A DNA stretch of 64,000 nt, from assembly GCA_019321725.1 (NCBI GenBank), contig CM033118.1:10566071-10630070 (forward strand). Direction: 5' to 3'. This document shows, piece after piece, positions 5,201 through 46,135 of this stretch; within the stretch, counting starts at the first letter, position 1, and each line of letters starts with the position of its first letter. The DNA comes from Paulownia fortunei. Taxonomy: Eukaryota; Streptophyta; Magnoliopsida; Lamiales; Paulowniaceae. The notes under the pieces are model-generated. The model ran no database searches. It saw nothing but the letters and a program-made list of their open reading frames with translations, and was not told where the DNA came from. A program made the position numbers and the translations under genes.

Positions 5201-5516
5201 ACCAAAAAAAATTATTATTTTTTAACAAAATTAAGCAATAGACTCAGACTTCCGACAACTCAGAAACTAGAGTACCATGATCTACAACAAACTTTGGCCA
5301 CAAAGACTAAACTCGAAAACTTTACAAAGAAAGGTTTCCTCGGGCCAATGGAGATTGGCCTCCGAGTGCAATGGTAGAAGATAGCTTAATTGCGGAGGCA
5401 AGGAATTAAGGTCAAAATACCAAATGAAAGTAGATCGGTTTTTAACTGGACACATTCTACACAAAGATAAGTAGACAAAATTTCTAAAAGGATAAATTAT
5501 TTAAACAAATTTAAGA
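5201..5516. other. unassigned spacer
   Basis: This stretch lies between the LINE fragment and the S18 pseudogene. A 60-codon minus-strand frame (5282-5464) is not recognisable. No other signal is seen. Confidence 0.4.
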
Positions 5517-5962
5517 TTAACACTTTTATGGAGACACCAATAGTCTTGCCTCTACGTCATGTGGTCTTGGTGTGCTGAACTCGGATGCTCAAACCCAAAT
5601 AGTGTTGGAGACCTTGGTGATTTTTTATTTTCTTTAAATGCATAAGGTCGTCCCTCAGTTTTATGTCCAATACATTAGAAATAACCTGTAAATACTTGTC
5701 ATCCTTGTAATCCTTTTGCTTGTTGGGAAAATAATTTGGGATCTTTAACAAATGAGGATTTGCAACAACTATTATTAACTTGTTGATTTCAGTAGCAAAA
5801 AGTTCACCAGCTTCTTTTTTCATGTCAGACATCGGCTTTTGCAGACGATATTCGGTCGATACCTTTGATGGAAGTAAGCGCAAACATAATCTTTTCTTCC
5901 CATCCACGTTAGTGTCCAGCACACACAATATGTGCTGAAAATCCTTATTTGCCACCACACAT
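5517..5962 (-). pseudogene. RPS18: 40S ribosomal protein S18 (uS13) processed pseudogene
   Basis: S18 sits in the head of the small ribosomal subunit. The minus-strand frame 5958-5557 aligns with eukaryotic S18 along its length: [20 protein letters not shown] near the N-terminus, [16 protein letters not shown] in the middle, then [52 protein letters not shown] and RVQHTKTT. The native start is probably the ATG at 5962, two bases out of frame. The middle region after [12 protein letters not shown] is scrambled by indels. A TGA replaces the Gly after HTKTT, and RRGKTIGVS is still readable behind it, reaching a TAA at 5517-5519. There are no introns, consistent with retroposition, although no clear poly(A) tail remains. 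A real S18 is about 152 residues. Confidence 0.9.
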
Positions 5963-6029
5963 GGCTACAGGTTTTCGGCAGCTGTTATATTAGCATCCAA
6001 ACTATTAGGAATGGATGCATAATATTTGA

Positions 6030-7518
6030 GTTATTGGGGTTTCAACTAACAATCTATGCCTTAGGCTTAATCGAGAGATTAGTTGATGGAATGATCGTAC
6101 TTGCTTGGTATTTATAATCGGAATAGGGTTGCACTTCACCTAAGAGTAGGAGTCATGATACATTACTATGTGCTTCCCATGACTTGCGGGTTATTGGATT
6201 TAATAAGTTAATTCCATTATGACTAATTAATTAGATCAATTGATCAGAATAATTAATTTGTTCAATTAAGTCACAAGATTTACGGGCCCATGGCTAGTTT
6301 AGAGTGAACCTAAGGGGTCACACACTAAGTTGGAAAGAGTACACTTTTAGCTAGAATATATCCAAGGGTTGGATCAACAATTAATAAAGATTAATAATTT
6401 GAGGCTCAATATGATTTAAGGAATTAAATTAATTTATCCAATTAAAATAATATGATTATAGAATTGGACCTAATAAGATTAGGGAGCCCATGTGGACCTA
6501 ATTAATTAATTAATACGATCAATTAATTAAGGAGAATATAAAATAATTTAAGGAGTTAAATTAATTTATCCTATTAAATAATATGATTATTTAATTGGAC
6601 CTAATATAATTGAGAGCCCTACATATGATAGTGTTAATTAATTGATATGAAAATGTTAGTTAAATTTGACATATTAAATAATATGATTATTTAATAGGTT
6701 CTAATATAATTAGAAAGTCTAAGTAGAACTATTGGATCAATTAATTAAGTTAGACTTATTTAATTAATGGGATTCAATTAATTGAGTTTAATTAAATTAA
6801 TTAAAGTCCAAGTCCAAGCTAATGGGCTCGTAGAAGGCTCGTTAGAAAGTTTAATTATAAGAATTAAACTTGTCATAGAGTTTGATAAAAAGAAGGAATC
6901 AAATAAGGAAGAAAGCAAGTGGAAACTTAGTGGGACTAGGATTGGAGGAGTCCTATATAAGGACTCCCCATATGGCCGAAAATTGCTGAAAAATTAAGAG
7001 CCAAATATCGGCCAGCACTCCAAAAAAAATCCATCCCACTTTGTCTTCTTCCTTTGATTCCTTTCATCCACCAAAAGATTCCATCTTTTGGTTCAATTCT
7101 TCTATTGAATTAAGTATTGAACTCCACATATTCTAGAGTAGAATAGGTCTTTTAGATTACTAACATAAATTCAATTGATATGGAAAATTCCAATGTGTGA
7201 TACGCTTAAAGGGATAAACTTGGGACTCTAAGCAAATCATTTCCAACAAGAGGAGTATGGTTCAAGATTCGTGAAAGCAGTTCGTAGATGGATTTGAGAT
7301 TCACAAAGGAGTTCGTGAAGAGATAATAATTTGGATTGTAACAAGCATCTTTTTCAGACAGAGTGCAAATTAAGGTAAAGGTTTCTACAAGCTTCCTGCT
7401 ATAGATATTAGAAATTGCACAATTGAGTAATCGCACATGGTTTCTAGAATTCATTTTATTACATGTGATGTAATGTTTGTTTATTTTTTTAAAAAAATGT
7501 TAAATTCCATTACGTAAT
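6030..7518 (+). repeat. copia-type LTR, first copy
   Basis: From about 6033 the sequence matches 8665-9440 in the same orientation, starting at the shared gggtttcaacta core. Shared blocks are rich in attaatta and ccaattaaataatatgatta motifs. It contains a TATA box in a small palindrome (6947-6967) and ends just before a decayed methionine-tRNA type primer site. The start is set by where similarity to the second copy begins and is approximate. Confidence 0.55.
6947..6967 (+). promoter_or_regulatory. TATA box inside a 7-bp inverted repeat
   Basis: ggagtcc, tatataa and ggactcc follow each other without gaps: a TATA box framed by a perfect 7-bp inverted repeat. It is the likely LTR promoter. The second LTR copy breaks off before this point. 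Confidence 0.55.
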
Positions 7519-9442: not shown

Positions 9443-10375
9443 GTTTGATACCTATTAATTGAGTATTATTTGCTTAACTTTTTTATTAGTTTTCGAAATT
9501 CTTGTGAATTTTATCATCGTTTTTAATGTTATTTTACAAATTTGAGGATGAAAAAAGAACAACACTTGAATTTATTAAAATCTACATTTATTTTATATTT
9601 TTTCAAAAAAAAAATTATTTCGTCTGAGTCAAGAAGAGAAAACATTTTAGGGCATCTCCCATCTCATTTTTAACATCCTAAGATCCTCCAAATTAGTTTT
9701 TGAGGGACAAAGAAGAGAAAACAAGCCAAGAAAGAAGAAAGAAGAAGAGAAGAGAATTCTTTCATGATTTGAGAAGAAAACATCTACAAGGGAAGAAACA
9801 CATGCACTTTCAAGGTCCATTTTATTTTCTTCTTTCTTTCTTTAATTATGTTCATGGATGTTGTTAAGTTATTATTCATTTTTACTACCATCATGAACTA
9901 ATTTATTTTTCTAGGGTTGTGATGTAATCTAATTAAGATATTTTGAATATTTTATCAATTCAATTATTGATTTGTTTTCAAGTCGAGTATTCTATATGGT
10001 TCCTAATGCTTTCAATTACTTGCTAATCATATTGACCCAGAAGGTGATATATGTGTTTAGTTTTGAGTGTAGGAAATCACAAATTGCATGTGAGATATGA
10101 ATATACTTGCATGGTTTGTTTAGTCTTATTTGAGATCCATAAAACCTAATGAATTATTGATTGTTGTAATTCACATAAGAATATAATGGGCTAGCAATTG
10201 ATGATATTTTTATTAGATCTCGGGAGAGGCTAGTGGATAATTTAGGGATTATCAACTATCACTTGAAAAATGATCACAATATAGTGATATTTACATATTG
10301 GTTTTATTTACATATAGTTATATGATCACATTAGGGATTCTCAACAATCATTTGGTTTAATTTACATATTAGTCA
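9443..10375 (+). other. unassigned, possibly old gypsy LTR
   Basis: Non-coding and AT-rich, with a purine-rich stretch at 9700-9800 and a gatctcgggagaggctagt motif near 10220 that recalls LTRs of plant Athila/Tat-type gypsy elements. The assignment is a weak impression only. The integrase of element A begins abruptly after it. Confidence 0.3.
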
Positions 10376-11208
10376 ATATAGATTATGTCTCAAAATGGAT
10401 CGAGGTAATTTTCTATTGAAATAATGATCACAATATAGTGATAAATTTTTAAAAGAAAATATTTTAACTCGATTTGGAATTCCTCGATCCATTATTAGTG
10501 ATGAGGGAAAATAAATTTATAATAAAGTTTTTGGAACATTCATGAGGAAATATGGAATTATATATAAAGTTGCAACTCCTTATCACCCTCAGATATATAG
10601 ACAAGTTAAACTTGCAAATATGGAGATAAAATAAATTTTAAAAAATACAGTTAACCCAAATTGTAAAGTTTGGTCTCTTAGACTTAACAATACACTTTGG
10701 GCATGTAGAACTACTTTCAAAACATCATTAATCATGTCTCCTTATAGGATAGTTTATGGTAACCCTTGTTATTTACCTATTGAACTTGAACATAATAAAG
10801 CTTATTGAGAAATCAAAATATTTAACTTCAACCATGATGAAGTTTCAAAATTGTACAAATTGCAAAGCAATGAACTCAAGAGCTGAGAAATGAAGCATAT
10901 GAGAATTCTAAATTTCATAAAGCAAGAATCAAAGATATTCATGATAATAAAATTTCAAGAAAAATATTTGAGGTCGGTTAAAAGGTTTGCTTTATAATTC
11001 TCGATTGCATTTATTTCTTAAAAAATTTAGATCAATGTGGAGTGGTCCTTTTGTTGTAAAAGAGGTATATCCTTATGGGGAGATTGACATTGAAAATCCT
11101 AGAAATGGTAACATATTCAAATTAAATGGACAAAGATTCAAACTATTTCTAGAGTATCAATTTTCACAAGAGGAATTTTTTTTTCTTTCTAATCCTTGTT
11201 ATGATTAG
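10376..11208 (+). pseudogene. gypsy integrase of element A
   Basis: It starts within the integrase core (DYVSKWIEV) and continues through the second Asp region (SRFGIPRSIISDEG type) and [15 protein letters not shown]. The C-terminal part at 10987-11208 is open for 73 codons ([20 protein letters not shown]). There are several in-frame stops and at least one frameshift. The same segments recur at 46148-46960 and 56760-57600 on the other strand. It is not functional. Confidence 0.85.
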
Positions 11209-11400
11209 TGTGTGTATATATACTTATTTTCTCTAACTTTATTTGTTTTGTTGGCTTTCTTTCTTTTATTTTTTTTCTTTTCCTAGCGGACAACAGTACT
11301 CCGTGGCTATTAAATTCGGACTTATCAGTTTCCCAAATAACTGAAATCTTTGTACAAAGTTTTTCTCTTTTTCTCATTCTCTTTTCTTCTTCTTTTCAAA

Positions 11401-11964
11401 ATGGATGACATTTTTCTAACTCTCAAGAAGTGATTTCCTTTTCTTTTTAAAAATGCAATTTTAAAAATTTATAAAATTAGAATTTAAAGATTAAGGATAC
11501 TTATGCACAAAGGCATCCTATGGGACATACGATGGATAATTGAAGGAAAGGTAAGAGCAGCAGGTGAATTTTCATACGAGTCTTCAAACTTGCTTACTAG
11601 ATGCATACTTGGTTGGTTTTGGTAAAAGCACATATTCAAAAAAAAAAGGGCGAAAAAAATGCAAGTTTATCATAAATGTGCTTAATGGACTTGCAGCACA
11701 AAGTATCATTCCTTAGGAATTGTTTCTAAAAATTAAAAAGATAAAATTCAATTTATTATGGATGGACTGAGTAAGGAGTCTTTAGATGACATTTTATTGA
11801 CTCTTGAGATGTATTCATATGGAATAGTGCATCGTGCAATTCTTTATTTACGAAATCACTTCCAAGATGAATATAAGTGTTGCAGTCTTGAGAATCTAAC
11901 ATTAAAAGACCCAGTTTGCCAGTTTGTAAGAAAATTGGATGAGAAGCATATCCTCGACCCATAG
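11401..11964 (+). pseudogene. ORF X, conserved element ORF, copy A
   Basis: This unrecognised coding region lies between integrase and LOG and is present in all three family members. It begins MDDIFLTLKK and has a middle section matching HKGIPEDIRWIIEAKVRAGE of copy C. It ends in a well-kept frame at 11758-11964: KESLDDILLTLEMYSYGIVH, RAILYLRNHFQDEY, then VRKLDEKHILDP and TAG. Copies A, B and C end at the same HI(L/F)DP stop, which suggests a real coding sequence of roughly 185-190 residues in the ancestor. Copy A carries several stops. I see no signal peptide or known fold and assign no function. Confidence 0.55.
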
Positions 11965-12204
11965 AGGGTGTTTAAGTCATTCCAGGACATAAAATCAAAA
12001 AAAGATGTGAGCCACAATCACAACTACATGTACATTCATGTGTAAGTAGATAATTTTTAAATTTTGTGTGTCCTTATTTTCAACCTTTCTGACAAAAGAA
12101 AAGGACGTGCAATAAATGCATACCTCTGTTCACACCTCAATAAATTGCACCATACTCACTCCATTTTGCACAACTCACTTTCAAAAAATAAAAAAAGAAA
12201 GAAA

Positions 12205-12851
12205 ATGGAAGGGTCTTCTACTTGCAAGTTCAACTGTATTTATGGAACCAATCCAGAAAAAAATGATGAGTTTATAGGGACAGCCAATAACCTTGGTAAA
12301 ATTTTAGCATAAAGAAAAATTTATTTAGTGTATGGGGGAGGCAATCTGGGGTCAATGGGGAGTGTTGCTACTTCTGCTCTTGTAGGAAAAGTCAAAGTTT
12401 TAGGAGTTATCCCAAAACCTTTAACAATATAGAATATCACATGTATGACTATCAAAGATGAGCTAAAAGTGTCACATATTTTCAAGACAAAATGCCTAAC
12501 ATATTAAACAATGTGGATGCATTCATCAACTTACCTAGTGGTTTTGGTACACTAGAGGAATTATTCCAAGTTGTTTCTTGGGCATAACTCAACATTCACC
12601 AGAAACTTATAGGTATTCTTAATGTTAATGGTTTCTATGATGGTTTGCTATCTTTTGTAGATCATGATGTGGAAAAGGGTTTTATTTCATCATCTGCAAG
12701 ACGAATCCTCATTTTTGCTCCAACACCTAACCAATTGATTGATCAACTTCCAACATATGTGCCAAAACCAAATCTAGCCTTGGCTTGTATGGATTGGTCC
12801 AACAGGGACAGTGGTCGAAAATGCAAAATAAATTTGACTCTCAACCTGTGA
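12205..12851 (+). pseudogene. LOG: LOG cytokinin riboside monophosphate hydrolase, copy A
   Basis: LOG enzymes cleave cytokinin riboside 5'-monophosphates to free cytokinin plus ribose 5-phosphate. The copy starts at ATG 12205 (MEGSSTCKFNCIYG). It shows the nucleotide-binding motif as VYGGGNLGSMG, the LGVIP strand, the signature as LPSGFGTLEELFQ (family: PGGxGTxxE), and a full C-terminus at 12645-12851 (LSFVDHDVEKGFISSSARRI, LACMDWSNRDSGRK) ending at its own TGA. Length is 647 bp, so it is full-length with a net one-base loss. Early stops and a frameshift near 12480 kill it. It has no introns, whereas plant LOG genes have several (known). The first Gly of the signature is Ser. Confidence 0.9.
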
Positions 12852-14167
12852 AATTTATCCTTAATAGTTTCAACTAATAGTGTGTGCTTTGTGTTGTTTT
12901 AGCTTTATATTTTTCAATAAGCCACATTTCATGTGATATCTTTTAAACTCTACTTTTCTATTATTCTCGACATTAGGAACAATGTCTAGATTGGGGGAGG
13001 GGATAGTTGATATCATGTCTTGTGTGTTCAATGTGTGTTTTTTTACTTTTTTTAAAAAAGAAAACCAAGCATATTTTCTTTTGGATCCGTTGAAACCATG
13101 AGTAAGGGTGGCCAGAGTAAAGAGTAATCTTTTGACACTCTTGACACGCACCTCCATTTTATTTTTTATTTTTCATAACATGGCATGTTTGTGAAGTTTT
13201 TAATTGAAATTTTGTGAATTGCCAAGATATAATTATAATCGTCTTTTTTTTAGAATCTAAGGATACTATCTTAAAAAAAATATTAGTCTTGTGCACATCC
13301 TACGCCTTGTGGAAAGATTAGTTGTGATACATATAACTAAAAATTCCAACCATGTTAAAGTGTTTACTTTTTAATATTCACACATCTTTTGTCAATAAGT
13401 GGATAGTTTGAGAAAACAAGCATTCTGAACTTTAATTGATCATTTGAATTGGTTTCGTTGTAATTTGAGATGCCTAATCATGTCTACCTTGCACGTGTAG
13501 AAATGAATTGGGTAAACATGTGTAGTTATCTATTTATATTGAAATATTTCTCTTTGTAGCTAGTGATGTGAGTATAATTATAAATTCTTCTTTTGATCTT
13601 CTATTATCATGCGAGTCATGTTGTATAATAAAAATAAACAAACAAACAAAAAAACAAAAACAAAAACAAAACAAAGCAAGCAAGCAAAAAGATTTATTTT
13701 TAGGTTAACCAATGAAATTTTGTGGCATTTTATGATAAGACAGACTAGGTATTTCAAATTTTGTAACTACCTATCTTATGCTCAATTTTAGTTTGAATGT
13801 TTGTCCTAAATTATTTAAGCCATTTCTCTGATTATTTTTCAACTCCATGAGTGAACACCTTACCAATTTAAATGGCAAACACTTATCTATAAAGATATGG
13901 AGTTGAGGCTTTTTCATGATTGATTTTGAAGTTATATGTATCTTGGTCTATAGAATAAAAGGTTAGCGTACGTGCACATACACACAACATCATTTGAAAA
14001 AAAAAATTGATAGCATCTGTAATCTCTGACAAATGATTGTTTGTGATTGTTAGACTATTTTACGTTTTTTTTTAAATTTTGATCATCATGCCATGTTGCT
14101 TTTTATTTGTATTGCATTTTATTACGTTATAATTACTAGGGACTAGTAATAAGCTGGTTGTGGGTTG
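12852..14167 (+). other. non-coding 3' region of element A with internal purine tract
   Basis: It contains ttgggggaggggatag at 12991-13006, a purine tract of the kind found upstream of the 3' LTR in plant Tat/Athila-type elements. Equivalent tracts lie near 44430 and 54930 on the minus strand. A purine-rich tract also lies directly before the LTR. No ORF is supported. Confidence 0.6.
13630..13690 (+). repeat. A-rich simple repeat (CAAA/CAAAAA)n
   Basis: About 60 bp of caaa, caaaaa and caag units lie within the non-coding 3' region of element A. It is low complexity and probably arose by slippage. Confidence 0.8.
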
Positions 14168-15803
14168 TGATGAACATTTAGAAGTGTACAATTAATTAGG
14201 ATTTATATAATTATTTTCACTTTGAAATTGTCTATAGAACTCTCAATTAAAGTATTTTTGTATTTTAGAAATAAAATGGGAAATCAACATAAAAAAATGA
14301 GATTAAAAAGTTTTATCTTTTTTTATATAGGTTTTAGAGAAACTGGCGTAACTTTGATTCCGGAATGGTTTTGGGTTAATTTTTAAGACTATGGATTGAT
14401 AAGTCATTAATCTATAAGTTCATATAGACCTCGAATTCCATACTAAATGTGTAAGGATCAAAGAAGTTGGATAACAAGTGGCCGTACAAAATAGATCACC
14501 AAAAATTCGGATCACACTTAAGTCTAATCCTATTGGGTCATATTTTTTAAACTAAAATTGATTTTGGGCTGAAATTTGGATATGTTATACAAAAGAGGTA
14601 GATAAACAATTTTTCTTAAGACAAGATTGTGAAAAAATATATCAAAATAGTCAATAAACATGTTGTAATGCGCTACTGATATTGAAGAATGTCTCTTAAA
14701 CTTGATCCGGTAATTTGATTATATCTCCCTCATCCTGCTATCAAATTTGACAAATGACATATGAAACTCTATCATCAAAGAAATATCTACAACTTGTATT
14801 CTTTACCCATCATCAAATTCAGGTCGTATCCAGCTTAAAATTTTAATTTAATCAGGTAGATAAAAATTTAGAGGATTTGATGTAACAATTTACCAACTCT
14901 TGACAACTAGCATACCACTTGATTGTTTAACTCCTCCATTATATGTTTGGTCCTAGCATACTCCAAGTACTATAAATAGGTCATGTATTAAGCTTGTAAG
15001 AGAGGGGATAGAGGGGAAAAGAAAGTTTTATTGTTGTCTTTCTTTAGGCTAAGTTTTCTAGTAGTAATATAAGTTTTCTAGTAGTAATAGAAATGTATTC
15101 TCTAGTTTCTCTTCTATTTTTAGTCTTTTCTATTTTCATTATGTCTTTCTAAATTTTATTTTGCTGAAAAAAAAAGGGTGAACCTCTTGATGGAGGAAGA
15201 GGAATGATTATATAGGTAGAAAATATTTTAAGTGTGTTGTATTAAACCCTACTTCTTTTGTGGTAATTCTTAATTTATGTATCACTAATGGCACAACAAA
15301 TACTTGGGTTCATTTAGGTAGACATTTGGTTTTATTACACCAACAACTAACATGAAACTTTGATTTATTGTGGACAAATGTGTGCATAAATACTTGATCA
15401 TATCAATAAGTGTTGCGTTAAAAGATAATTTGTAAATAGTAAGACAATAGTATGATTACCTTATTTCATGAGCTATTTGATAACATCTTTCCATTGGAAC
15501 CTTCATTATGTATGAATTTCAATAGTGGCAATTAAAAGAGGTAAAAAGAATAAATAATCATTCTTCTATCCAAAACTCACGAGCGGATCCCTAATCCTCA
15601 ATACTTTTATTACTTTGGTTTTTTTGGTTATAGCGTAACATTATTTTTTATATATATTCTAAACCACATAAAACCCATCTTTTTTTCTAGAAATATAATA
15701 TTAAAATCTTCAAACAATTTTCTTGTAGATCGACCTCGGACTCACTAGAAATTTATTACCTGATATAATTTGCACTTGGATTTGCAACGTTAAAGTTGTA
15801 ACA
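14168..15803 (+). repeat. 3' LTR of element A
   Basis: It starts tgatgaacattt after a purine-rich tract and ends gttgtaaca (TG...CA), 1,636 bp. The reverse complement of 41666-43279 matches it over most of its length, and its 3' half also matches the LTRs of element C. A TATA box, tataaatagg, lies at 14971-14980. The flank after 15803 cannot be tested for a target duplication because the 5' end of A is lost. Confidence 0.8.
14971..14980 (+). promoter_or_regulatory. LTR TATA box, element A
   Basis: tataaatagg stands at the same relative place as the reversed ctatttata motifs in the LTRs of B (about 42470) and C (62935-62943). It is the likely core promoter of the family. Confidence 0.6.
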
Positions 15804-19270: not shown

Positions 19271-20384
19271 TATTGACATTTTATCTTTACCTCTCTTGAA
19301 AAATTATTGTTCATATTATGTATATAAATAGGAATGTTTGAAAGATCACATGAACTAATGCTTTTTTTCATGCTATCTAAGAAAAAATTCAGACTTTTTA
19401 AAATTTTGACCACTTATAGTTTAACTGATGTTTTTGGTTCTCTTTTGAAATCTTTATATTGTTATGTGTCCCAAAACCTCTCACATCTATTGGTGCACAA
19501 TATACACCATTACCATTGTTGACTCCATGATAAATTTTAGGCAGCTCGACTAGATATTTGATAGTAAAAGTATTGTAGGCTAACAATATCATTACTCCAA
19601 CATGTAAACCTAAAATCTTGTTTGATGGTTGATTGTGTTTTATTTTTCAAGTTTGCCATATTGATGAATATAAATGACTTCAAAATCATGCAGTTAGTAT
19701 ATATAAATGATGATACTTATAATTTTTAGAATTTTATTTGTTGTAATTTTATTTTGAATATATATATAAACTCGAGAAAAAGAAGATGAATTGAAATTAG
19801 CACGAAAAATTAAGAATTTTAAAAGAATATCAATTGAGTATTACAAAAAACAAATTACAGTTGACATTGCACCAAAGTAATGAACTCTCTTTCAACCCAT
19901 AATTTATAGGCAACACTTTTTTTTTAGAGATTAAAAAAATTTGCCAAATCAAAACTGAAAATTCAGTATGTACCAAAGTCAAACAAAAAAATTTGATTTG
20001 ATATTTATTTCTGTAATAAAAATTTTGTATTTTTTTTATTTTTTATTCCAATTTATCGAACTGTACCAAATATCGAATTTAATTTTTATAAATTGATAAA
20101 ATAAAAGGTAAAATACTTAAAAATATAATTTTCACACATATCTGTAATGGAATCAAATATGGGTGGCTTGAGTTTCTGTAATAATAAATTCAAATACGGG
20201 TGGCTTGAGAAAACATATGCTAATGGAATCAAATATCTGATTAATTGACATAATTATTTTTGCATTTCTCAAGTACAGGAAACTATACTTTTAGTCTTAT
20301 AGTTCAGGAGCCCTTGCAAATTTAATCCAATGATTCAGAAAAAATTCAATTTTAGTCATGAATACATTTTGATACAGAGGTGTC
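19271..20384. other. AT-rich spacer before the tandem array
   Basis: No gene is recognised. A short imperfect direct repeat with the core gggtggcttgag occurs near 20160 and 20200. The segment about 19865-19965 weakly resembles 17430-17520. Confidence 0.35.
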
Positions 20385-21208
20385 AAATTAAATGGCGACA
20401 CATGTGCAATAATATATTAAATATCAATTTTCTATTTTCTATTTATATTATGGATTTAATCAAATTTAATTCATAAATTAAATAGTTAATTACTTGATAT
20501 TGCAAAATATATTTTACTGGTCAATCACATGTCGTCAAGTGTCAAATCTCAATTGTTTGAAATCAAGACTTATCTTGTAAGTTATGGAAGTGAGTACCAA
20601 CACAATTAGTAATTCAAATAAAATCTTGTGATGTCAATCAAATCATGAATAACCAATCAAACTTTGCCACTTCATCAAGTGATTTATCTAAGAACTCCTA
20701 TCTTACTAGTATAAATAGGGGTCATTCTCAAGAGTCAAAAATATAAGTTGTGAAGCGATGTTTAGGTGAGGCTGAAGCCATCTAACCTTAAGCTCATTTT
20801 GGGTTTTGTGGATTACTATTGGCCGATAATAGTAAACGATTGCATGGATTATGCATAAGCATGTCAAGTCTATCAATTTCATATAAATCTTATTCACCAA
20901 CCGCCTGAGTTGTTACACACTACTATTGCTTCACGGTCATTTGACGCTTGGGGATTAGATATGGTTAGACCTATGACAAAGTCTTCTAAAGGGCATTTAT
21001 ACATTTTGGTTGCAACTGACTATTTTTCTAAGTGGACTGAAGTGATACCTCTCAAAGAATTAAAGAAGAAAAATGTTGCTGACTTTATCTGTATCAATAT
21101 TATGCATCGCTGTGGATTCCTAGATATATAACACGGATAATGGAAAGCCGTTTTGTATAGTTTGATAGATAAGCTTTGCGAGAAGCTAATTTGTAGAAAA
21201 ACAAAATT
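20385..21208 (+). repeat. array monomer 1
   Basis: First unit of the array, 824 bp, with its TATA box at 20710. The integrase piece is deleted around the first zinc-binding segment. The frame 20910-21131 holds SFDAWGLDMVRPMTKSSKGH and breaks just before the second Asp block. Confidence 0.85.
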
Positions 21209-22066
21209 GCCATTTATATTAAATATAATTTTATATTTTCACTTATATTTTGGAATTTAATCAAATTTAATTACTAAATTAAATAGTTAATTACTTGATA
21301 TTGTAGTATATATTTAGTGGCCAATGATATCTCGCCAAATGTCAAATCTCAATTCTTTAAAATCAAGACTTATCTTGTAACTTATGGAAGTGAGTACATC
21401 ACAAATCGGTAATTTAAATTACATCTTGTGATGTCAATCAATTCATGAATGAGCAATCAAATTTTATCATTTCATCAAATGATTTATCCAAGAACCCCTC
21501 TCTTACTAGTATAAATAGAGGGCATTCTCAAGAGTCAAAAACATAAGTTGTGAAGCGATGTTTAGGTGAGGATAAGCCATCCAACCTATCGAATAAGCTC
21601 ATTATGAGTTTTGTGGTACTCATAATTAGGCCTAAAGTTGCACTTCCGAATAAAAAGTATGGGTTACTATTGGCCGACATTAGTAAAATATTGAATGGAT
21701 TATGCGCAAAGATGTCAGTCTATCAATTTCATGCAAATTAAATTCATCAGCTGCCTGAGTCGTTACACCTTACTATTGCTTCATGGCTATTTAACGGTTG
21801 GGGATTAGATGTGATTGCACCAATTACAAAGTCTTTTAGAGGCTATTTGAACATTTTGGCTACAACTGACTACTTTTCTAAGTGGCTGAAGTGATACCTT
21901 TCAAAGAGGGAAAGAAGGAAAATGTTGCTGACTTTATCCGTATCAATATTATTTATCACTATGGGATTCCTCGATATATAATCACGGATAATGGAAAGCC
22001 CTTTTACAACAGTTTTGATAAAAAAGCTTTGTGAGAAGTTAAATTTGTAGACAAATTAATTTTGGG
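21209..22066 (+). repeat. array monomer 2
   Basis: TATA box at 21510. About 35 bp at the start, including the ggcgacacgtg motif, are missing, which explains the short spacing to monomer 1. The integrase part carries the gatgtgattgcac variant shared with monomer 5. Confidence 0.85.
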
Positions 22067-22950
22067 CCAATTAAATGGCGAAACGTGTACAATAATATAT
22101 TAAATATCAATTTTATATTTTCTATTTATATTTTGGAATTTAATCAAATTTAATTCCTAAATTAAATAGTTAATTACTTGATATTGTAGTATATATTTAT
22201 TGGCCAATGATATGTCGCTAAGTATCAAATCTCAATTCTTAAAAATCAAGACTTATCTTGTAAGTTATGGAAGTGAGTACCAACACAAATTGATAATTCA
22301 AATCAAATCTTGTATGTTAATCAAATCATGAAAGGCCAATCAAATTTTGCCACTCATCAAATGACTTATCTTAGAACCCCTATCTTACTAGTATAAATAG
22401 GGGTCATTCTCAAGAGTAAAAAACATAAGTTGTGCTGCAATGTTTAGGTGATGATGAAGCCATCCAACCTATGGAATAAGCTCATTCTGGGATTTGGGGT
22501 ACTCATCAATCAGGCCCAAAGTTATAATTATGATTAAAAAGATGGGTTACTATTGGCCAACAATGGTAAAAGATTGCAAGGATTGGGCACAACGATGTCA
22601 AGTTTATCAATTTCACATAAATCTTATTCCCCAACCACCTGAGTCGTTACACCCTACTATTGCTTCACGATCCTTTGACGCTTGGGATTAGATGTGGTTG
22701 GACCTATGACAAAGTCTTCTAGAGGGAATTTATACATTTTGGCTGCAACTGACTATTTTTCTAAGTGGGCTGAAGCAATACCTCTCAAAAGAGGTAACGA
22801 CGAAAAATGTTGCTGACTTTATTTGTATCAATATTATTCATCGCTATGGGATTCCTCGATATACAATCACGGAAAATGGAAAGCCATTTTGCAACAGTTT
22901 GATAGATAAGCTTTGTGAGAAGCTAAATTTGTAGAAAAATTAAATTTGTG
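22067..22950 (+). repeat. array monomer 3
   Basis: 884 bp, TATA box at 22392. The frame 22494-22691 covers the zinc-binding part (MGYYWPTMVKDCKDWAQRC). It shares the tgtgc-gcaatg variant and the aaaggcc variant with monomer 6. Confidence 0.87.
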
Positions 22951-23820
22951 GCAATTAAATGGCGACACGTGCATAATAATATATTAAATATCAATTTTAT
23001 ATTTTCCATTTATATTTTGGAATTTAATTAAATTTAATTTCTAAATTAAATAGTTAATTACTTGATATTGTAGTATATATTTTATTGTTCAATGATATGT
23101 CGCCAAGTGTCAAATCTTAATTCTTTGAAATCAAGACTTATCTTATAAGTTATGGAAATGAGTGACAATACAAATTGGTAATTCAAATCACATATCAAAT
23201 TATGAATAACCAATCAAATTTTGCCCCTTCATCAAATGATTTGTCCAAGAACCTTTATCTTACTAGTATAAATAGAAGGTCATTCTCAGGAGTAAAAAGC
23301 ATAAGTTGTCAAGCGTTGTTTAGGTGATGATGATGCCATCCAACCTATGGAATAAGCTCATTCTGGGTTTTGGGGTGCTCATCAATCAGGCATGAAGTTG
23401 CACTTATGAATAAAAAGGATGGGTTACTATTGACCAATAATGGTAAAAGATTGCATGGATTGTGCATAAAGATGTTAAGTCAATTTCATGCAAATGTTAT
23501 TCACCAACCGCCTGAGCCGTTACACCCTACTATTGCTTCATGGCCTTTTGACGCTTCGGGATAGATGTGGTTGGACCTATGATAAAGTCTTCTAGAGGAT
23601 AATTGTAAATTTTGGCTGCAACTGACTACTTTTTTAAGTGGGCTGAAGCAATACCTCTTAAAAAAGTAAAGAAGGAAAATATTGTTGACTTTATCTGTAT
23701 CAATATTATTCATCGTTATGGGATTCCTTGATATATAATCAGAAAATAGAAAGCCCTTTTGCAACAGTTTGATAGATAAGCTTTGTGAGAAGCTAAATTT
23801 GTAGAAAAACAAAATTTATG
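22951..23820 (+). repeat. array monomer 4
   Basis: 870 bp, TATA box at 23267. It lacks about 12 bp (cttgtgatgtca) upstream of the TATA box, exactly like monomer 7, and shares the aacctttatc and gcgttgtttagg variants with it. Confidence 0.87.
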
Positions 23821-24682
23821 CCAATTAAATGGCGACACAAGTACAATAATCTATTAAATATCAATTTTATATTTTCCATTTATATTTTGAAATTTAAACA
23901 AATTTAATTCCTAAATTTAATAGGTAATTACTTGATATTGTAGTATATATTTTATTGGCCAATGATATGTCTTTGAAATCAAGACTTATCTTGTAAGTTA
24001 TGGAAGTGAGTACCATCACAAATTGATAATTTAAATCATATCTTGTGATGTCAATCAAATCATGAATGATCAATCAAATTTTGCCATTTCATCAAATAAT
24101 TTATCGAAGAACCCCTGTCTTACTAGTATAAATAGGGGTCATTCTCAAGAATCAAAAAACATAAGTTGTGAAGCGATGTTTAGGTGAGGATGAAGCCATC
24201 CAACCTATGGAATAAGCTCATTCTGGGTTTTGTGGTACTCATTAATTAGGCCCAAAGTTGCACTTCTAAATAAAAAATTTGGGTTACTATTGGCCGATAT
24301 TAGTAAAATATTGAATGGATTATGCGTAAAGATGTCAAGTCTATCAATTTCAGGCAAATCGAATTCACTAACTGCTTGAGCCGTTACACCTTACTATTGC
24401 TTCATGGCCGTTTAACGGTTGGGGATTAGATGTGATTGCACGAATTACAAAGTCTTCTAGAGGGCATTTGAACATTTTGGATGCAACTGACTACTTTTCT
24501 AAGTGGGCTGAAGTGATACCTTTCAAAGAGGGAAAGAAGGAAAATACTGCTGACTTTATCCGTATCAATATTATTTATCACTATGGGATTCCTCGATATA
24601 ATCACGGATAATGAAAGCCCTTTTACAACAGTTTGATAAAAAGCTTTGTGAGAAGTTAAATTTGTAGACAAATTAAACTTGT
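23821..24682 (+). repeat. array monomer 5
   Basis: 862 bp, TATA box at 24127. It lacks about 21 bp after ggccaatgatatgt, as monomer 8 does. Its integrase part matches monomer 2, so the edge of a duplication block falls inside it. Confidence 0.87.
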
Positions 24683-25572
24683 TCCAATTAAAATGGCGAA
24701 ACGTGTACAATAATATATTAAATATCAATTTTATATTTTCTATTTATATTTTGGAATTTAATCAAATTTAATTCCTAAATTAAATAGTTAATTACTTGAT
24801 ATTGTAGTATATATTTATTGGCCAATGAATATGTCGATAAGTATCAAATCTCAATTCTTAAAAATCAAGACTTATCTTATAAGTTATGGAAGTGAGTACC
24901 AGCACAAATTGATAATTCAAATCACATCTTGTGATGTTAATCAAATCATGAAAGGCCAATCAAATTTTGCCACTCATCAAATGACTTATCTGAGAACCCC
25001 TATCTTACTAGTATAAATAGGGGTCATTCTCAAAAGTCAAAAACATAAGTTGTGCAGCAATGTTTAGGTGATGATGAAGCCATCCAACCTATGGAATAAG
25101 CTCATTCTAGGATTTGTGGTCCTCATCAATCAGGCCCAAAGTTACAATTTTGAATAAAAAGGATGGGTTACTATTGGTCAATAATGGTAAAATATTGCTA
25201 GGATTACGCACAAAGATGTTAAATTTATCAATTTCAGATAAATCTTATTCCCCAACCGCCTGAGTCGTTACACCCTACTATTGCTTCATGATCGTTTGAC
25301 GCTTGGGGATTAGATGTGGTTGGACCTATGACAAAGTTTTCTAGAGGGCATTTATATATTTTGGCTGCAACTCACTATTTTTCTAAGTGGGCTGAAGCAA
25401 TACCTCTCAAAAGAGGTAACGAAGGAAAATGTTGCTGACTTTATCTGTATCAATATTTTTCATCGCTATGGGATTCCTCGATATACAATCATGGAAAATG
25501 GAAAGCCATTTTACAACAGTTTGATAGATAAGCTTTGTGAGAAGCTAAATTTGTAGAAAAATTAAATTTGTG
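24683..25572 (+). repeat. array monomer 6
   Basis: 890 bp, TATA box at 25012. Closest relative is monomer 3, 2,620 bp upstream. Confidence 0.87.
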
Positions 25573-26441
25573 CCAATTAAATGACGACACGTGCATAATA
25601 ATATAATAAATATCAATTTTATATTTTCCATTTATATTTTGGAATTTAATTAAATTTAATTTCTAAATTAAATAGTTAATTACTTGATATTGTAGTATAT
25701 ATTTTATTGTTCAATGATATGTCACCAAGTGTCAAATCTTAATTCTTTGAAATCAAGACTTATCTTATAAGTTATGGAAATGATAACAATACAAATTGGT
25801 AATTCAAATCACATATCAAATTATGAATAGCCAATCAAATTTTGTCCCTTCATCAAATGATTTGTCCAAGAACCTTTATCTTACTAGTATAAATAGAAGG
25901 TCATTCTCAAGAGTCAAAAAATAAGTTGTGAAGCGTTGTTTAGGTGATGATGATGGCCTTCCAACCTATGGAATAAGCTCATTCTGGGTTTTGGGGTGCT
26001 CATCAATCAGGCCTAAAGTTGCACTTATGAATAAAAAGGATGGGTTACTATTGACCAATAATGGTAAAAGATTGCACGGATTGTGCATAAAGATGTTAAG
26101 TCAATTTCATGCAAATGTTATTCACCAACCGCCTGAGCCGTTACACCCTACTATTGCTTCATGACCTTTTGATGCTTCGGGATAGATGTGGTTGGACCTA
26201 TGACAAAGTCTTCTAGAGGATAATTATAATTTTGGCTGCAACTAACTACTTTTTTAAGTGGGCTGAAGCAATACCTCTTAAAGAGGTAAAGAAGGAAAAT
26301 GTTGCTGACTTTATTTGTATCAATATTATTCATCGTTATGGATTCCTTGATATATAATCACGTATAATAGAAAGCCTTTTTGCAACAGTTTGATAGATAA
26401 GCTTTGTGAGAAGCTAAATTTGTAGAAAAACAAAATTTATG
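25573..26441 (+). repeat. array monomer 7
   Basis: 869 bp, TATA box at 25888. Closest relative is monomer 4, 2,621 bp upstream, with the same small deletion. Confidence 0.87.
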
Positions 26442-27302
26442 CCAATTAAATGGCGACACAAATACAATAATATATTAAATATCAATTTTATATTTTCCAT
26501 TTATATTTTGAAATTTAAAAAAAATTAATTCCTTATTTAATAGTTAATTACTTGATCTTGTATTATATATTTTATTGGCCAATGATATGTTTTGAAATCA
26601 AGACTTATTTGTTAGTTATGGAAGTGAGTACCATCACAAATTGATAATTTAAATCACATCTTGTGATGTCAATCAAATCATGAATGACCAATCAAATTGT
26701 GTCATTCATCAAATGATTTATCCAAGAACTACTATCTTGCTAGTATAAATAGGGGTCATTCTCAAGAGTCAAAAACATAAGATGTGAAGCGATGTGTAGG
26801 TAAGGATGAAGCCATCCAACATATGGAATAAGCTCATTCTTGGTTTTGCGGTACTCATCAATCAAGCCCAAAAGTTGCACTTCCAAATAAAATGTATAGG
26901 TTACTATTAGCCGACATTGGTAAAATATTGCATGGATTATGCACAAAGATGTCAAATTTATCTATTTCATGCAAATCTAATTCACCAACCGCCTGAGTCG
27001 TTATGCCCCTACTATTGCTTCATGGCCATTTGACGCTTGGGATTAGATGTGGTTGGACCTATTATAAAGTCTTCTAGAGGGCATTTGTACATTTTGGCTG
27101 CAACTGACTACTTTTCTAAGTGGGCTGAAGCAGTACCTTTCAAATTGGTAAAGAAGGAAATTGTTGTTGACTTTATCTTTATCAATATTATTCTTCACTA
27201 TGGGATTCCTCGATATATAATCACAGATAATGGAAAGCCCTTTACAATAGTTTGATAAATAAAGCTTTGTTAGAAGCTAAATTTATAGAACAATTAAATT
27301 GT
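26442..27302 (+). repeat. array monomer 8
   Basis: 861 bp, TATA box at 26744 in the cttgctag variant. The promoter part matches monomer 5, but the integrase part matches monomer 10 (attataaagtc, attcttcac). The frame 27037-27255 holds GHLYILAATDYFSKWAEA and RYIITDNGKPF. Confidence 0.87.
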
Positions 27303-27876
27303 GCCAATAAATGACGACACATGTACAAAAATATGTTAATATCAATTTTATATTTTATATTTTATATTTAGATTTAATCGAATTTAATCCCTTAGTTAAA
27401 TAGTTAATTACTTGATATTGTAGTATATATTTATTGGCCAATAATATATCGTCAAGTGTCAAATCTCAATTCTTGAAAATCAAGACTTATCTTGTAAGTT
27501 ATGAAGTGACTACCAACACAAATTGATAATTCAAATCACATTTTGTGATGTCAATCAAATCATGAATGGCAATCAAATTTTTTCCACTTCATCAAATGAC
27601 ATATCCAAGAACCACTATCTTTCTAGTATAAATAGAGGTCATTCTCAAGAGTCAAAAAAATAATTGTGAAGCGGTGTTTAGGTGATGATAAAGCATACAA
27701 CCTATGGAATAATCTCATTCTGGATTTGGTGCTCATCATTCAGGCCTAAAGTTCTACTTCCGAATAAAAATGATGAATTACTATTGGCCAACAATGGTAA
27801 AAGTGCATGGATTACGAATAAAGATGTCAAGCCTGCAATTTCATGCAAATCTTATTCACCCCGTCTGAGTATGAAA
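27303..27876 (+). repeat. array monomer 9, truncated
   Basis: TATA box at 27627. The unit is cut off inside the integrase zinc-binding segment near 27870, where an inverted piece of a monomer begins. Confidence 0.8.
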
Positions 27877-27883
27877 ATCTTAT

Positions 27884-28290
27884 CACAAAACCCAGAATGA
27901 GCTTATTCTGTAGGTTTGAATGGCAACATCATCACCTAAACATCGCTTCAACAAACTTATGTTTTTTACTCTTGATAATGACCCCTATTTAAACTAGCAA
28001 GATAGTGGTTCTTGGATAAAATCATTTGATGAAGTGACACAATTTGATTGACATCACAAGATGTGATTTGAATTACCAAATTTGTATGGTACTCACTTTC
28101 ACAACTTACAAGATATCTTGTGAATGTCAATCAAATTGTGTCACTTCATCAAATGATTTATCCAAGAACCACTATCTTGCTAGTATAAATAGGGGTCATT
28201 ATCAAGAGTCAAAAACATAAGTTGTGAAGTGATGTTTAGGTGATGATGTAGCCATTCAACCTACAGAATAAGCTCATTCTGGGTTTTGTG
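27884..28290. repeat. inverted duplication within the array (hairpin)
   Basis: The left arm 27884-28060 is the reverse complement of the right arm 28117-28290, with a 56-bp spacer that is itself inverted monomer sequence. The arms share private variants (cctacagaataag, attatcaagag, attgtgtcac) and look more than 90 percent identical by eye. A transcript across the site would fold into a stem of about 175 bp. Confidence 0.85.
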
Positions 28291-28747
28291 GTACTCATCA
28301 ATCAGGCCCAAAGTTGTACTTCCGAATAAAAAGGATGGGTTACTATTGGCTGACATTGGTGAAAGATTGCTTGGATTATGCATAAAGATATCAAATCTAT
28401 CAATTTCATGCAAATCTTATTCACCAATAGCCTGAGTCGTTATGGCCTACTATTTGCTTCATGGCCGTTTGACGCTTGGGGATTAGATGTGGTTGGACCT
28501 ATTATAAAGTCTTCTAGAGGGCATTTGTACATTTTAACTGCAACTAACTACTTTTCTAAGTGGGCTGAAGCGATACCTTTCAAAGAGGTAAAGAAGGAAA
28601 TTATTGTTGACTTTATCTTTATCAATATTATTCTTCACTATGGGATTCCTCGATATATAATCACATAATGGAAAGCCCATTTGCAACAGTTTGATAGATA
28701 AGCTTTGTGAGAAGTTAAATTTGTAGACAAATTAAATTTGGGCCAAA
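28117..28747 (+). repeat. array monomer 10, truncated at 5' side
   Basis: TATA box at 28184. The frame 28378-28668 (96 codons) covers SWPFDAWGLDVVGPIIKSS and the following core to RYIIT. The unit stops at tttgggcc, where gypsy RT sequence in the other orientation begins. Confidence 0.83.
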
Positions 28748-29346
28748 ATTCGCACTTTTTGAATTTAGCATACAACTGCTTTTCCTTAAGAACTTGCAGC
28801 ACAATCTTCAAATGTTCCTTGTGTTCTTCTTTATCACGTGAATAAATTAGATATCATCAATAAACACTATCACAAATTTATGGAGATATTACTTGAAGAC
28901 CTTATTCATTAGATCCATAAAAGTTGCAGAGGCATTGGTTAAACCGAAGGGCATCACTAGAAATTCATAATGTCTATACCTTGTTCGGAATGCAGTCTTT
29001 TGTATGTCTTCTTCCTTGATCTTCAATTGATGTACCCAGAGCGCAAATCAATCTTAGAAAATATTGATGCTCCCTGCAATTGATCAAACAAATCATCTAT
29101 TCTTGGAAGTAGATACTTATTCTTGATTGTTACTTTATTCAATTCTCTATAATGAATGCACAACCACAATGTACCATCCTTCTTTTTCACGAAAAACACA
29201 AGTGCTCCCCAAGGAGAATAACTAGGGTGAATAAAACCCTTATCAGGCAATTCTTGCAATTGAACCTTTAACTCTTTCAATTCTGTTGGTGCCATTTGAT
29301 ATGGTGCTTTAGAAATAGAGGTAGTCCCTAGCATAACATCAATCAT
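28748..29346 (-). pseudogene. gypsy reverse transcriptase, N-terminal part
   Basis: The frame 29346-29023 holds [60 protein letters not shown] and [12 protein letters not shown]. After a frame break, minus-strand sequence to 28748 continues with [17 protein letters not shown] and VFIDDI (the polymerase Asp pair), then a stop. The sequence ends after the thumb-proximal part, at the array junction. Confidence 0.88.
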
Positions 29347-29753
29347 AAATTCAATCTCTCAATCCGGTGGTAGTCCCGGTAAATCATCTGAAAATACCTC
29401 AAGAAATTCTTGAACCACATCTATATTTTCTGGCTTCAATTGTGCTTCGACCAAAGTGTCCAGAACATTTACCAAATATCCAACACAACCTTTATTCAAC
29501 ATCTTTCAAGCTTTCAAAGTAGTTATAATTGGTAAAGATAGTGAGGATGAAGTACCATTAAACATAAATTGTTCTTCCCCAGGTGGCTAAAAAATCAAAA
29601 TCTTCTTGTTACAATCAATTATTGCATGATATTTGGTAAGCCAATCCATACCCAAAATAACCTAAAAATTTGGCATCGATAAAATAACGAGATCTGCATA
29701 GAGAGTCCTATCACTAATCTGAATAGAACAAGCCCTTAACATTTAGTTGGAAT
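29347..29753 (-). pseudogene. protease to RT linker, decayed
   Basis: Continuation of pol between protease and RT. No long frame is left. Its position and orientation support the assignment, but I can define no motif. Confidence 0.5.
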
Positions 29754-29951
29754 CTATTTTTCCCCGGATGGAACAGTCACATTGTACCTTACTTTTAATA
29801 AATCTGGTGTAATACCTAATTTTCTCACAAATGCACGTGATGCAAATGAATGCATAAATTCAGAATCTATCAATACAATTATAGATATCCCAAAAATTAA
29901 AATAGTACCTGTGACTATGAAAGCATCTATATTAGCTTGTTCTTGTGTCAT
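29754..29951 (-). pseudogene. gypsy aspartic protease
   Basis: The frame contains GISIIVLIDSEFMHSFASRAFV followed by KLGITP. The family motif is DSG(A/S)THSF; here the Gly after Asp-Ser is Glu, so the protease is inactive. It overlaps the end of the gag frame, as usual in gypsy elements. Confidence 0.75.
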
Positions 29952-30901
29952 TGCATATACTCTCCCCTGTACTATTGGGCAATCCTTTGCTATATGTCCA
30001 GCTTTTTACATTTAAAGCAATGATTTGTACTACTAAAGCATTCCCCAAAATGATTTTTCCCACACTTAGCACATTTAGGTCTTTCAACTGTAGTAGAAGT
30101 TTGCCCAACTCTAGGACACTTTTCATTCCCTGGTTTGATTTTTGCTCTCCTTTCTTCCATTGCTTCAGATTTCTTGGAGTGAATACTTGCTTCTTTTGTT
30201 GATGGAATTTCTCAATCTTTTTCTCATCTAAGTCAGTCATCAAAGCTTTGTCCACCAGTTCCCTAACCTCTATTGCTGAAGACATTCTCATATCTCTTCT
30301 AATTTCTATATTAAGGCCCCTTAGGAAATGATTCATCTTCTCATTGTTGTCTCTAATGATGTAGGACACATACTTGCAACCTTCTTCAAATTTTCTCACA
30401 TAATCACATACAGACATCCCTCCTTGTTTTAACTCCAGGAATTCTTTTACTTTGAGGGACTAGCATCCCTAGTGAAATACTTATTATAAAAGATTGTTTT
30501 AAACCTCTCCAAGTCAACTCTTTCATATTCACTGCAAGTTTAGCGCCTTCCCACCAGGTTCTATCATCCTTCTTTAACAAGAAAATTGCATAGAGTACCC
30601 TCTCAGCATCATCAATTCGCATGCAGTCAAAGATAGGGTCCAAAGATTTCACCCATTCCTCTGCAAAAATAGGATCAGACCCACCATTAAAATCAACAAG
30701 TTCCATCTTTCTAAATTTCTCATACACAGCTTATGGTGGAGGAAGTCGTTGATTCTGTTCTTGGCTTCTCTATTGCATATCTAGCAATTGTTGTATCTAT
30801 TCACCATGCATTCTAGTCTATTGTTGAATGAGATCAGTCAAATTATTCACCACACTATGATTACCCTCATGATCATCCATTGTCTTCATTTTTGGTGCCA
30901 T
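29932..30901 (-). pseudogene. gypsy gag with zinc knuckle
   Basis: The probable start is the ATG at 30901 (MAPKMKTMDDHEG). The frame 30727-30404 holds [20 protein letters not shown], the typical capsid region; 30417-29932 continues with [15 protein letters not shown] and [17 protein letters not shown] zinc knuckle ([13 protein letters not shown] type) and a second Cys motif are readable near 30000-30080 in shifted frames. It is broken by stops and frameshifts. Confidence 0.85.
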
Positions 30902-31082
30902 GACCTAATATGCATTATCTGATCTCATTCCATTCATTAGCTAATAATAAATGCATAATCATGACAATAACATAAAATAAAATTTGATCAAGTAAACATA
31001 AAAGCAAATAAACAAATAGTTGATCGAGTTTTTCAGTCAGGATGTGTTCATATGCCTTTTTCTGTCTTCAAGAATGACTAAA

Positions 31083-33362: not shown

Positions 33363-33604
33363 TACAAAGTCTTCTAGAGGGCATTTGTACATTTTCGCTA
33401 CAGCTGACTGCTTTTCTAAGTGGGTTGAAGCGAAACCTTTCAAAGAGGTAAAGAAGGAAAATATTATTAACTTTATCTGTATCAATATTATTTATTGCTA
33501 TGAGATTCCTCGATATATAACAATGGATAATGGGAAGCCCTTTTGCATCAGTTTGAGAGATAAGCTTTGTGAGAAGTTAAATTTGTAGACAAATTAAACT
33601 TGTG
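33363..33604 (+). repeat. array monomer 11, 3' part only
   Basis: The unit starts in mid-integrase at tacaaagtcttctagagg, directly beside the gypsy LTR edge. The frame 33385-33588 holds YIFATADCFSKWVEAKPFKE and DKLCEKLNL. Confidence 0.83.
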
Positions 33605-34493
33605 CGAATTAGATGGCAACACGTGTACAATAATATATTAAATATTAATTTTATATTTTCTATTTATATTTTGGAATTTAATCAACTTAAATTTCTAAAT
33701 TAAATAGTTAATTACTTGATATTATAGTATATATTTTATTAATCAATCACATATCGTCAAGTGTTAATTCTCAATATTTGGAAATCAAGACTTATCTTAT
33801 AACTTATGTAAGTGAGTACCAACACAAATTGGTAATACAAATTACATATTGGGATGTCAATCAAATCATGAATGGCCAATTAAATTTTGTCATTTCATCA
33901 AATGATTTATTAAAAAACCTCGATCTTACTCGTACAAATAGGGGTTATTCTCAAGAGTCAAAAACATAAGTTGTGAAGCGATGTTTAAGTGATGATGAAG
34001 TCATCCAAGCTACAGAAGAAGCTCATTCTGGGATTTGTGGTACTCTTCAAATAGGCCTAAAGTTGCACTTCTGAATAAAAAGGATAGGCTAATATTAGCC
34101 GACACTGGTAAAAGATTACATGGATTATTTATAAAGATGTCAAGTCTATCAATTTCATGCAAATCTTATTCACCGATGATCTGAGCTGTTATACCCTACT
34201 ATTTTTTCTTGGCCGTTTGACGCTTGGGGATTAGATATGGTTGGACATGTCACAAAGCCTTCTAGAGGGCATTTAAACATTTTGGTTGCAACTGACTACT
34301 TTTCTAAGTGGGTTGAAGCAATACCTTTCAAAGAGGTAAAAAAGGAAAATGTTGCTGACTTTATCCATATCAATATTATTTATCACTATGGGATTCCTTG
34401 ATATATAATCATGAATAATGGAAAGCCCTTTTTGTAAAAGTTTGAAAAATAAGCTTTGTGAGAAGTTAAATTTGTAGACAAATTAAATTTGTG
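33605..34493 (+). repeat. array monomer 12
   Basis: 889 bp. It is the only unit with a sense codon (cagaagaagctcattc) where nearly all others have an in-frame TAA, so it keeps the ancestral integrase state there. The TATA box is decayed to tacaaata (33933). Confidence 0.87.
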
Positions 34494-38021: not shown

Positions 38022-38233
38022 TTAATTAAATGGCAACACGTGTACAATAATATATTAAATATCAATTTTATATTTACCATTTATATTTTGGAATTTAATC
38101 AAATTTAATTCTTAAATTAAATAGTTAATTACTTGATATTGTAGTATATATTTTATTAGCCAATGATATGTTGCCAAGTGTCAAATGTCAATTTTTAAAA
38201 ATCAAAACTTATCTTATAAGTTATGGAAGTGAG
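38022..38233 (+). repeat. array monomer 17, cut by the gap
   Basis: Only the first 212 bp (ggcaacacgtg to atggaagtgag) are present before the Ns. Confidence 0.85.
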
Positions 38234-45152: not shown

Positions 45153-45389
45153 TTTTTTTCTTTTCTTTTTTTTTAAAGTAAGTTGTGAAAAATGGAGTGA
45201 GTATGTGCTATTTATTGAGGTGTGAGCAGAGAGTGCACTTATTACACGTCTTTTTCTTTTGTCAGAAATGTTGAAAATAAGGACACACAAAATTTAAAAA
45301 TGATCTACTTACACATGAATATACATGTAGTTATGCTTGTGGCTTATATTTTCCTTTGGTTTTATGCCTAGTAACGGCTTAAATGCCAT

Positions 45390-45916: not shown

Positions 45917-46135
45917 TTTGAAAAGAACATGAAAAAAAAGAATGAGAAAGAGAGACACTTTGTACAGAGATTTTAGTTGTTTGGAAAATTGATAAGTCCA
46001 ACTTTAATAACTTTAATAACCACTTAACTGGGAAAAAAATAAAAGAAATAAAACATACAAAACAAATAAAGTTAGATAAAATAAGTATATATACACACAC
46101 TATTCATAAAAAGGGTTAGGAAGAAAAATAATTTC

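Follow-up and report, generated by a model that had tools for sequence, protein, structure and literature searches.

A 64,000-nucleotide stretch of the Paulownia fortunei genome (assembly GCA_019321725.1, contig CM033118.1, positions 10,566,071 to 10,630,070 of the forward strand; hereafter the window) contains three copies, A, B and C, of a single Ty3/gypsy retrotransposon family, each with a damaged, intronless frame for the cytokinin-activating enzyme LONELY GUY (LOG) downstream of its integrase. Throughout the genome, copies of the same family carry LOG together with a second extra open reading frame, here called ORF X, between the integrase and the 3' long terminal repeat (LTR). We interpret this as an Athila-type family with ORF X and LOG as accessory genes, in which LOG would be active, would raise cytokinin and would aid the inheritance of the element; to this reading as a whole we assign a probability of about 0.45.

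Self-BLAST of the window united A, B and C at 80-86% identity in their internal regions and 75-84% across the LTR pieces, and tblastn with the LOG frame of C as query placed LOG matches at 12226-12686 in A (plus strand, two frames), 45137-44712 in B (minus strand) and 55709-55230 in C (minus strand). Together with the genome copies described below, these results bear out the proposal of an initial annotation, made from the letters of the window, that one gypsy family carries a LOG gene in sense orientation between integrase/ORF X and the 3' LTR. The identification of the frame as LOG is likewise upheld, since the open stretch of C matches Pfam PF03641 (E 4.9e-26) and has Arabidopsis At2g37210 (2a33) as its top match in the PDB (E 1.3e-44), and the damage differs among the copies as had been described. 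The LOG of A retains its ATG and has stops and a frame change within; that of B has lost approximately 16 N-terminal residues, contains stops and has a shortened tail; that of C has ATA where the start codon is expected, late stops, and a 159-amino-acid open stretch at 55230-55709.

The three copies are real, while two of the bounds first given for them have moved: A is 5'-truncated, because its similarity begins within the integrase, at 10350 and not at 10376, and B, because C is nested in it, resumes at 63731 and runs past the window. C is a complete element with two LTRs and the target site duplication (TSD) AGAAC on each side. Identity between its two LTRs is 88.3% (K 0.128), equivalent to about 5 million years (My) at 1.3e-8 substitutions per site per year, the rate used for LTR ages. 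LTRs of the family are about 1.6 kb long, and the purine tract after LOG, previously thought to adjoin the LTR, is internal: in A it lies at about 12990 with the LTR starting about 1.2 kb beyond (read by eye), and in sampled copies the tract that touches the LTR is about 1.6 kb further on. The 3' LTR of C is split at approximately 50071-52398 by a foreign insertion, which starts TGTACTG, ends GTTACA, has CTTAT on either side and looks like a solo LTR; a relative of it (83-87% identity) is found at 31107-33352, adjoining a gypsy remnant that bears gag and reverse transcriptase (RT) (minus strand, approximately 29000-31000). The features of the three copies, in window positions and with their basis in brackets, are as follows.

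10350 to 15803, plus strand: element copy A, a 5'-truncated, apparently Athila-type Ty3/gypsy element that runs from integrase to 3' LTR (self-BLAST against B and C)
11401 to 11964, plus strand: ORF X remnant of A, broken (sequence read against intact copies)
12205 to 12851, plus strand: LOG remnant of A, ATG present, internal stops and frame change (tblastn and sequence)
14168 to 15803, plus strand: 3' LTR of A, start approximate (similarity to the LTR of C and to sampled LTR pairs)
41666 to 49460, minus strand: element copy B, 3' part, resuming at 63731 past the nested C (self-BLAST; TSD and flanks of C)
41666 to 43279, minus strand: 3' LTR of B, start approximate (self-BLAST; sequence)
44562 to 45152, minus strand: LOG remnant of B, with its N-terminus deleted, stops inside and the tail shortened (tblastn and sequence)
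45390 to 45916, minus strand: ORF X remnant of B, broken (sequence and frame survey)
49461 to 63730, minus strand: element copy C, a complete element that is nested in B (LTR pair and TSD AGAAC)
49456 to 49460, minus strand: TSD AGAAC, 3' side of C (flank comparison)
63731 to 63735, minus strand: TSD AGAAC, 5' side of C (flank comparison)
49461 to 53404, minus strand: 3' LTR of C, interrupted at approximately 50071-52398 (self-BLAST; insertion edges)
62117 to 63730, minus strand: 5' LTR of C (self-BLAST; LTR pairs; TSD)
55068 to 55721, minus strand: LOG of C, with ATA in place of the start codon, a 159-amino-acid open stretch and late stops (open reading frame, Pfam PF03641, sequence)
55964 to 56522, minus strand: ORF X remnant of C, broken (frame survey and sequence)
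58607 to 59251, minus strand: RT stretch of C (Pfam RVT_1, E 1.4e-20)

The family is large in Paulownia and recently active. A PF03641 search of the genome returned 2486 first-look LOG candidates; all 150 that were scored lay above the cut-off, and by our own count some 115 of these were stop-free across the matched stretch. A Rehmannia LOG as query gave 3885 candidates, of which 150 were scored. Ten places were read across approximately 13 kb, each of them stop-free in the LOG domain, and eight have the full order LTR-gag-protease-RT-RNase H (RH)-integrase-ORF X-LOG-LTR, including one with its 5' LTR cut by the fetch edge and an RT/RH piece duplicated; the remaining two are one without gag to RH between its LTRs and one without pol. 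The integrase C-terminus and ORF X both lie upstream of LOG in 37 of 40 further places. In eight LTR pairs, seven from full elements and one from the copy without gag to RH, identity is 94.8-99.6%, or 0.14-2.1 My at the rate given above, and among eight copies sampled for TSDs, 5 bp are common to both sides in six, with one lacking a readable 5' flank and one mismatched. In copy L017 a second, diverged RT/RH piece stands behind the first (approximately 5243-6052), either a duplication or a nested element.

These 10 and 40 places were all picked through LOG, and the integrase was used as a query to check from the other side, giving 6375 candidates, 150 of them scored. Among the 40 best-scoring integrase places, a known LOG candidate follows on the same strand, no more than 3 kb downstream, in 20; eight of the other 20 were read, six having a broken LOG and two being LOG-less by deletion, so that LOG stands beside the integrase in 26 of the 28 places examined. 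The further integrase-ORF X-LOG-LTR copies that the initial annotation would expect of such a family thus abound. Since the same arrangement repeats through the genome, chance similarity and an isolated LOG gene adjoining a retroelement were both rejected.

A protein search with the LOG stretch of C found 429 homologues, of which the 120 listed were used (by our own count Reevesia 40, Diplodiscus 15, Orobanche 11, Rehmannia 8, Populus 5, Paulownia 4 and other rows 37). Full-length element-type LOGs from six genera, among both rosids and asterids, share 47-68% pairwise identity, and we take this conservation between genera as the chief argument that LOG has probably been constrained. A tree was built from 101 rows, namely 63 of the 120 element-type, 20 of 120 LOG3-type and 16 of 120 LOG8-type rows and two bacterial ones; in it the element-type LOGs form a single clade (support 100/99) on a long stem, apart from host LOG3 and LOG8 and without the scatter among host genes that would have spoken for unrelated origins; the Lamiales rows (Paulownia, Rehmannia, Orobanche and three others) group together (100/93). 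This host comparison covers LOG3 and LOG8 types and leaves out LOG5, LOG7 and LOGL10 types. The gene is plausibly a captured host gene, being intronless and plant-like, with host genes of those same two types compared as possible donors. Three Populus records named 'LOGL10' (P0028, P0071 and P0073) sit within the element-type clade and are probably element genes annotated as host LOGs.

In the numbering of the LOG8 structure, R98 and E121, which we take to be the LOG catalytic pair, are kept in 107 and 113 of the 120 listed homologues respectively, and the PGGxGTxEE motif is mostly kept. A model built from 24 aligned rows, six host LOGs included, has a pLDDT of 85.7 and lies 0.9 Å from 2a33; its closest structures in Foldseek are plant and type-I LOGs, with the nucleosidase PpnN ranking lower. 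By motif, catalytic arginine and glutamate, and modelled fold, the element protein is predicted to be a LOG phosphoribohydrolase. Scans of a viral contig set with LOG and with ORF X found no relatives of either.

The C-terminal tail of the element LOG reads like KRKLDLSLSL, and its last 16 residues have a pLDDT below 50. LxLxL occurs in the last 12 residues of 66 of 82 element-type rows of at least 210 amino acids (Reevesia 13/17, Diplodiscus 7/8, Populus 5/5, Rehmannia 5/5, Paulownia 4/4, other rows 32/33) and of none of 114 LOG3 and none of 108 LOG8 rows; away from the tail it is present in 2 of 120 LOG3 rows. The EAR repression motif is described as LxLxL or DLNxxP (PMC6283911, PMC9956375), and the tail would be EAR-like by this short motif.

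Selection within Paulownia was assessed on 50 sampled places, pre-selected as good, stop-free matches. A full 217-amino-acid LOG frame with ATG is present in 32 of these, and two more (L020 and L026) were cut at the start by the fetch; with that pre-selection in mind, the 32 frames agree with the earlier suggestion that an ancestor carried an intact gene. Across them omega is 0.41-0.54 for shared changes (p 0.003-0.03) and 0.77-1.02 for singletons. Widening the set to 43 intact frames, by adding 11 of 20 more divergent copies, gave weaker values of 0.60-0.78 for shared changes (p 0.013-0.14, by kappa) and 1.19-1.52 for singletons, with 59 nonsynonymous to 36 synonymous shared changes versus 106 to 33 among singletons (Fisher p 0.028), although recurrent mutation in old copies may swell the shared class. 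The contrast between the two classes is less affected by the choice of copies because both come from the same copies. Of the omega comparison between element copies that the initial annotation had advocated, what stands is this stronger constraint on shared changes; selection as such is weak.

Intact ORF X encodes 185 amino acids, with a basic patch and a cysteine cluster (CHIC...CNTKC). Carla_C4 (PF01623) is matched by all five intact ORF X sequences scanned, at 25.3-27.0 bits versus a cut-off of 20.9 (E 4.4e-6 to 1.5e-5) and over 34-47 residues spanning the patch and the cluster, and by none of seven reversed or shuffled controls; matches to Viral_NABP (PF05515) were below cut-off (E 0.0007-0.0018). 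The structure model of ORF X has a pLDDT of 43. On this short stretch, ORF X is likely to be related to the carlavirus nucleic-acid-binding protein.

Four open stretches of the family contain the Pfam domains gag, Asp_protease_2, RVT_1, RT_RNaseH, Integrase_H2C2 and rve; a second RNase H was not seen in them (Pfam, E <= 0.01), an absence that depends on the sensitivity of Pfam. After the 5' LTR, four of the eight copies shown have TGGCGCCGTTGCCGGGGA, which presumably pairs with tRNA-Asp, and we take the RT and primer-binding site of the family to look Athila-like. An archaeal-type RNase H (aRH) is what marks Tat, as against Athila, within the OTA superclade (PMC6317226). Because no second RNase H was seen, the family fits Athila and not Tat, a provisional placement as Athila-type Ty3/gypsy made by domain order and RNase H content. 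PMC7264820 reviews additional frames that elements carry after pol and before the 3' LTR, the env-like ones of Athila included.

The reading we favour would join these observations as follows. ORF X and then the intronless LOG occupy the place where Athila elements can carry an env-like frame. The lineage would have acquired LOG once, as a processed copy, either before the sampled rosids and asterids split or with later spread between them, and its product would still be an active cytokinin riboside 5'-monophosphate phosphoribohydrolase. On transcription of the element, LOG might raise active cytokinin in or near the same cell and so favour a state of division like that of a meristem, during which new insertions would be made and inherited; alongside LOG, ORF X may act on nucleic acids or on the regulation of the host. 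The benefit of cytokinin to the element is one that we infer. A more elaborate version, which we regard as rather unlikely, has the two genes form a cassette for control of the host, in which a nucleic-acid-binding protein of carlavirus type is joined by a LOG whose tail would bind TOPLESS; in expressing cells the pair would drive a stem-cell-like state and germ-line insertions and manipulate the hormone for the inheritance of the element.

Several results count against the favoured reading. One of the two LOG-less copies has a 1794-amino-acid open frame at its integrase, and LOG is therefore not strictly needed in cis; it has been dispensable there at least once, though helpers in trans could act. 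(These copies, L089 and L091, have a common 5' breakpoint at the A-rich tract just before LOG and 3' breakpoints at different A-rich tracts after it; because the latter differ they look like deletions, and an ancestral empty state was rejected.) Six aligned host LOGs have a lysine at position 99, where the 120 homologues without exception have I, M, L or T, and substrate use may therefore differ from that of host LOG. The selection signal within Paulownia is weak, and came from copies chosen as stop-free with good matches. Strict terminal LxLxL is found in none of 10 Orobanche rows, Carla_C4 in none of the three broken ORF X pieces of the window, and the element context of LOG is seen in Paulownia only, the other genera being known from protein rows alone.

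How far these points favour another explanation varies. The absence of K99, and the presence of PpnN among the lower Foldseek matches, would suit a hydrolase repurposed for other nucleotides, in pool clean-up or in the breakdown of a nucleotide immune signal, with cytokinin precursors not its main substrates; with R98 and E121 mostly kept and plant and type-I LOGs as the nearest structures, we consider this unlikely. Were the basic, LxLxL-bearing tail to have the main role, bringing in TOPLESS-type corepressors with the enzyme core as a scaffold, its occurrence in 66 of the 82 full-length rows of element type and in no host row compared, its low model confidence, as for a disordered stretch, and the EAR definition cited above would all be accounted for; a scaffold would not need its catalytic residues kept, however, Orobanche lacks the motif, and binding is a prediction from a short motif, which makes this distinctly unlikely. 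It seems quite improbable that LOG is a functionless passenger, a cDNA gained by chance and carried along by element copying: the three broken window copies, the weak signal inside the genome and the LOG-less copies are what such a passenger would leave, but not full-length LOGs with mostly intact catalytic residues at 47-68% identity in six rosid and asterid genera, nor singletons near neutrality beside more constrained shared changes. Finally, an unsampled host subfamily, outside the LOG3 and LOG8 types, could split the clade into several independent captures from host LOGs; the single clade on its long stem, the common tail and the grouping of the Lamiales rows make this very improbable beside one old acquisition.

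Elsewhere in the window, a tandem array of 870-890 bp units (approximately), mostly 82-90% identical, occupies 20380-28746 and 33363-38233 and is split by the gypsy remnant mentioned above, and a Ty1/copia remnant with SH3_retrovirus and RVT_2 domains (Pfam) in two long open stretches lies at 372-2256. Rfam gave no matches.

A gypsy family with LOG had been taken to be undescribed, a claim that fails: PMC9289625 already reports a LOG-type domain, YgdH/LONELY GUY, in gypsy LTR-element consensuses of Citrus sinensis and C. clementina, and of P. trichocarpa with a looser filter, in agreement with Steinbauerova et al. 2011. ORF X or Carla_C4 with LOG in one element was not found in the literature searched, most subscription journals being outside that search; within its limits the Paulownia family, the LOG clade across eudicots, the tail and the Carla_C4-like neighbour are new. 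A working enzyme would mean that a mobile element makes an active plant hormone, and the role of retroelement extra genes would be directly testable. There is also a warning for annotation, in that poplar, Rehmannia, Reevesia, Diplodiscus and Orobanche proteins of the clade, some with LOG in their names, may belong to elements and would then inflate counts of the host LOG family.

Like the Citrus and poplar gypsy elements, the Paulownia family has a LOG-type domain as an extra part, and its LOG clade takes in the Populus rows; the passages of PMC9289625 on Citrus and poplar give no layout, tail, neighbour gene, LOG tree or Paulownia element. The same paper describes gypsy elements of Phalaenopsis with an AlkB m6A demethylase, likewise an extra frame for a cellular-type enzyme retained through replication; enzyme and host differ, and activity in vitro was shown for theirs, while the Paulownia LOG is known from sequence and model. 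Intact ORF X shares its Carla_C4 match with carlavirus nucleic-acid-binding proteins such as chrysanthemum virus B p12 (PMC7588395), and differs from them in its 185 amino acids and its place in a retroelement. The element LOG resembles the plant LOGs At2g37210 and At5g11950 in modelled fold (within 0.9-1.4 Å) and in mostly keeping R98, E121 and PGGxGTxEE, and departs from them in being intronless, within an element, without K99 and with a basic, LxLxL-bearing tail. With Athila, as characterized in PMC6317226, the family shares domain order, a single RNase H, long LTRs, frames after the integrase and 5-bp TSDs; unlike Athila, its extra frames are ORF X and LOG.

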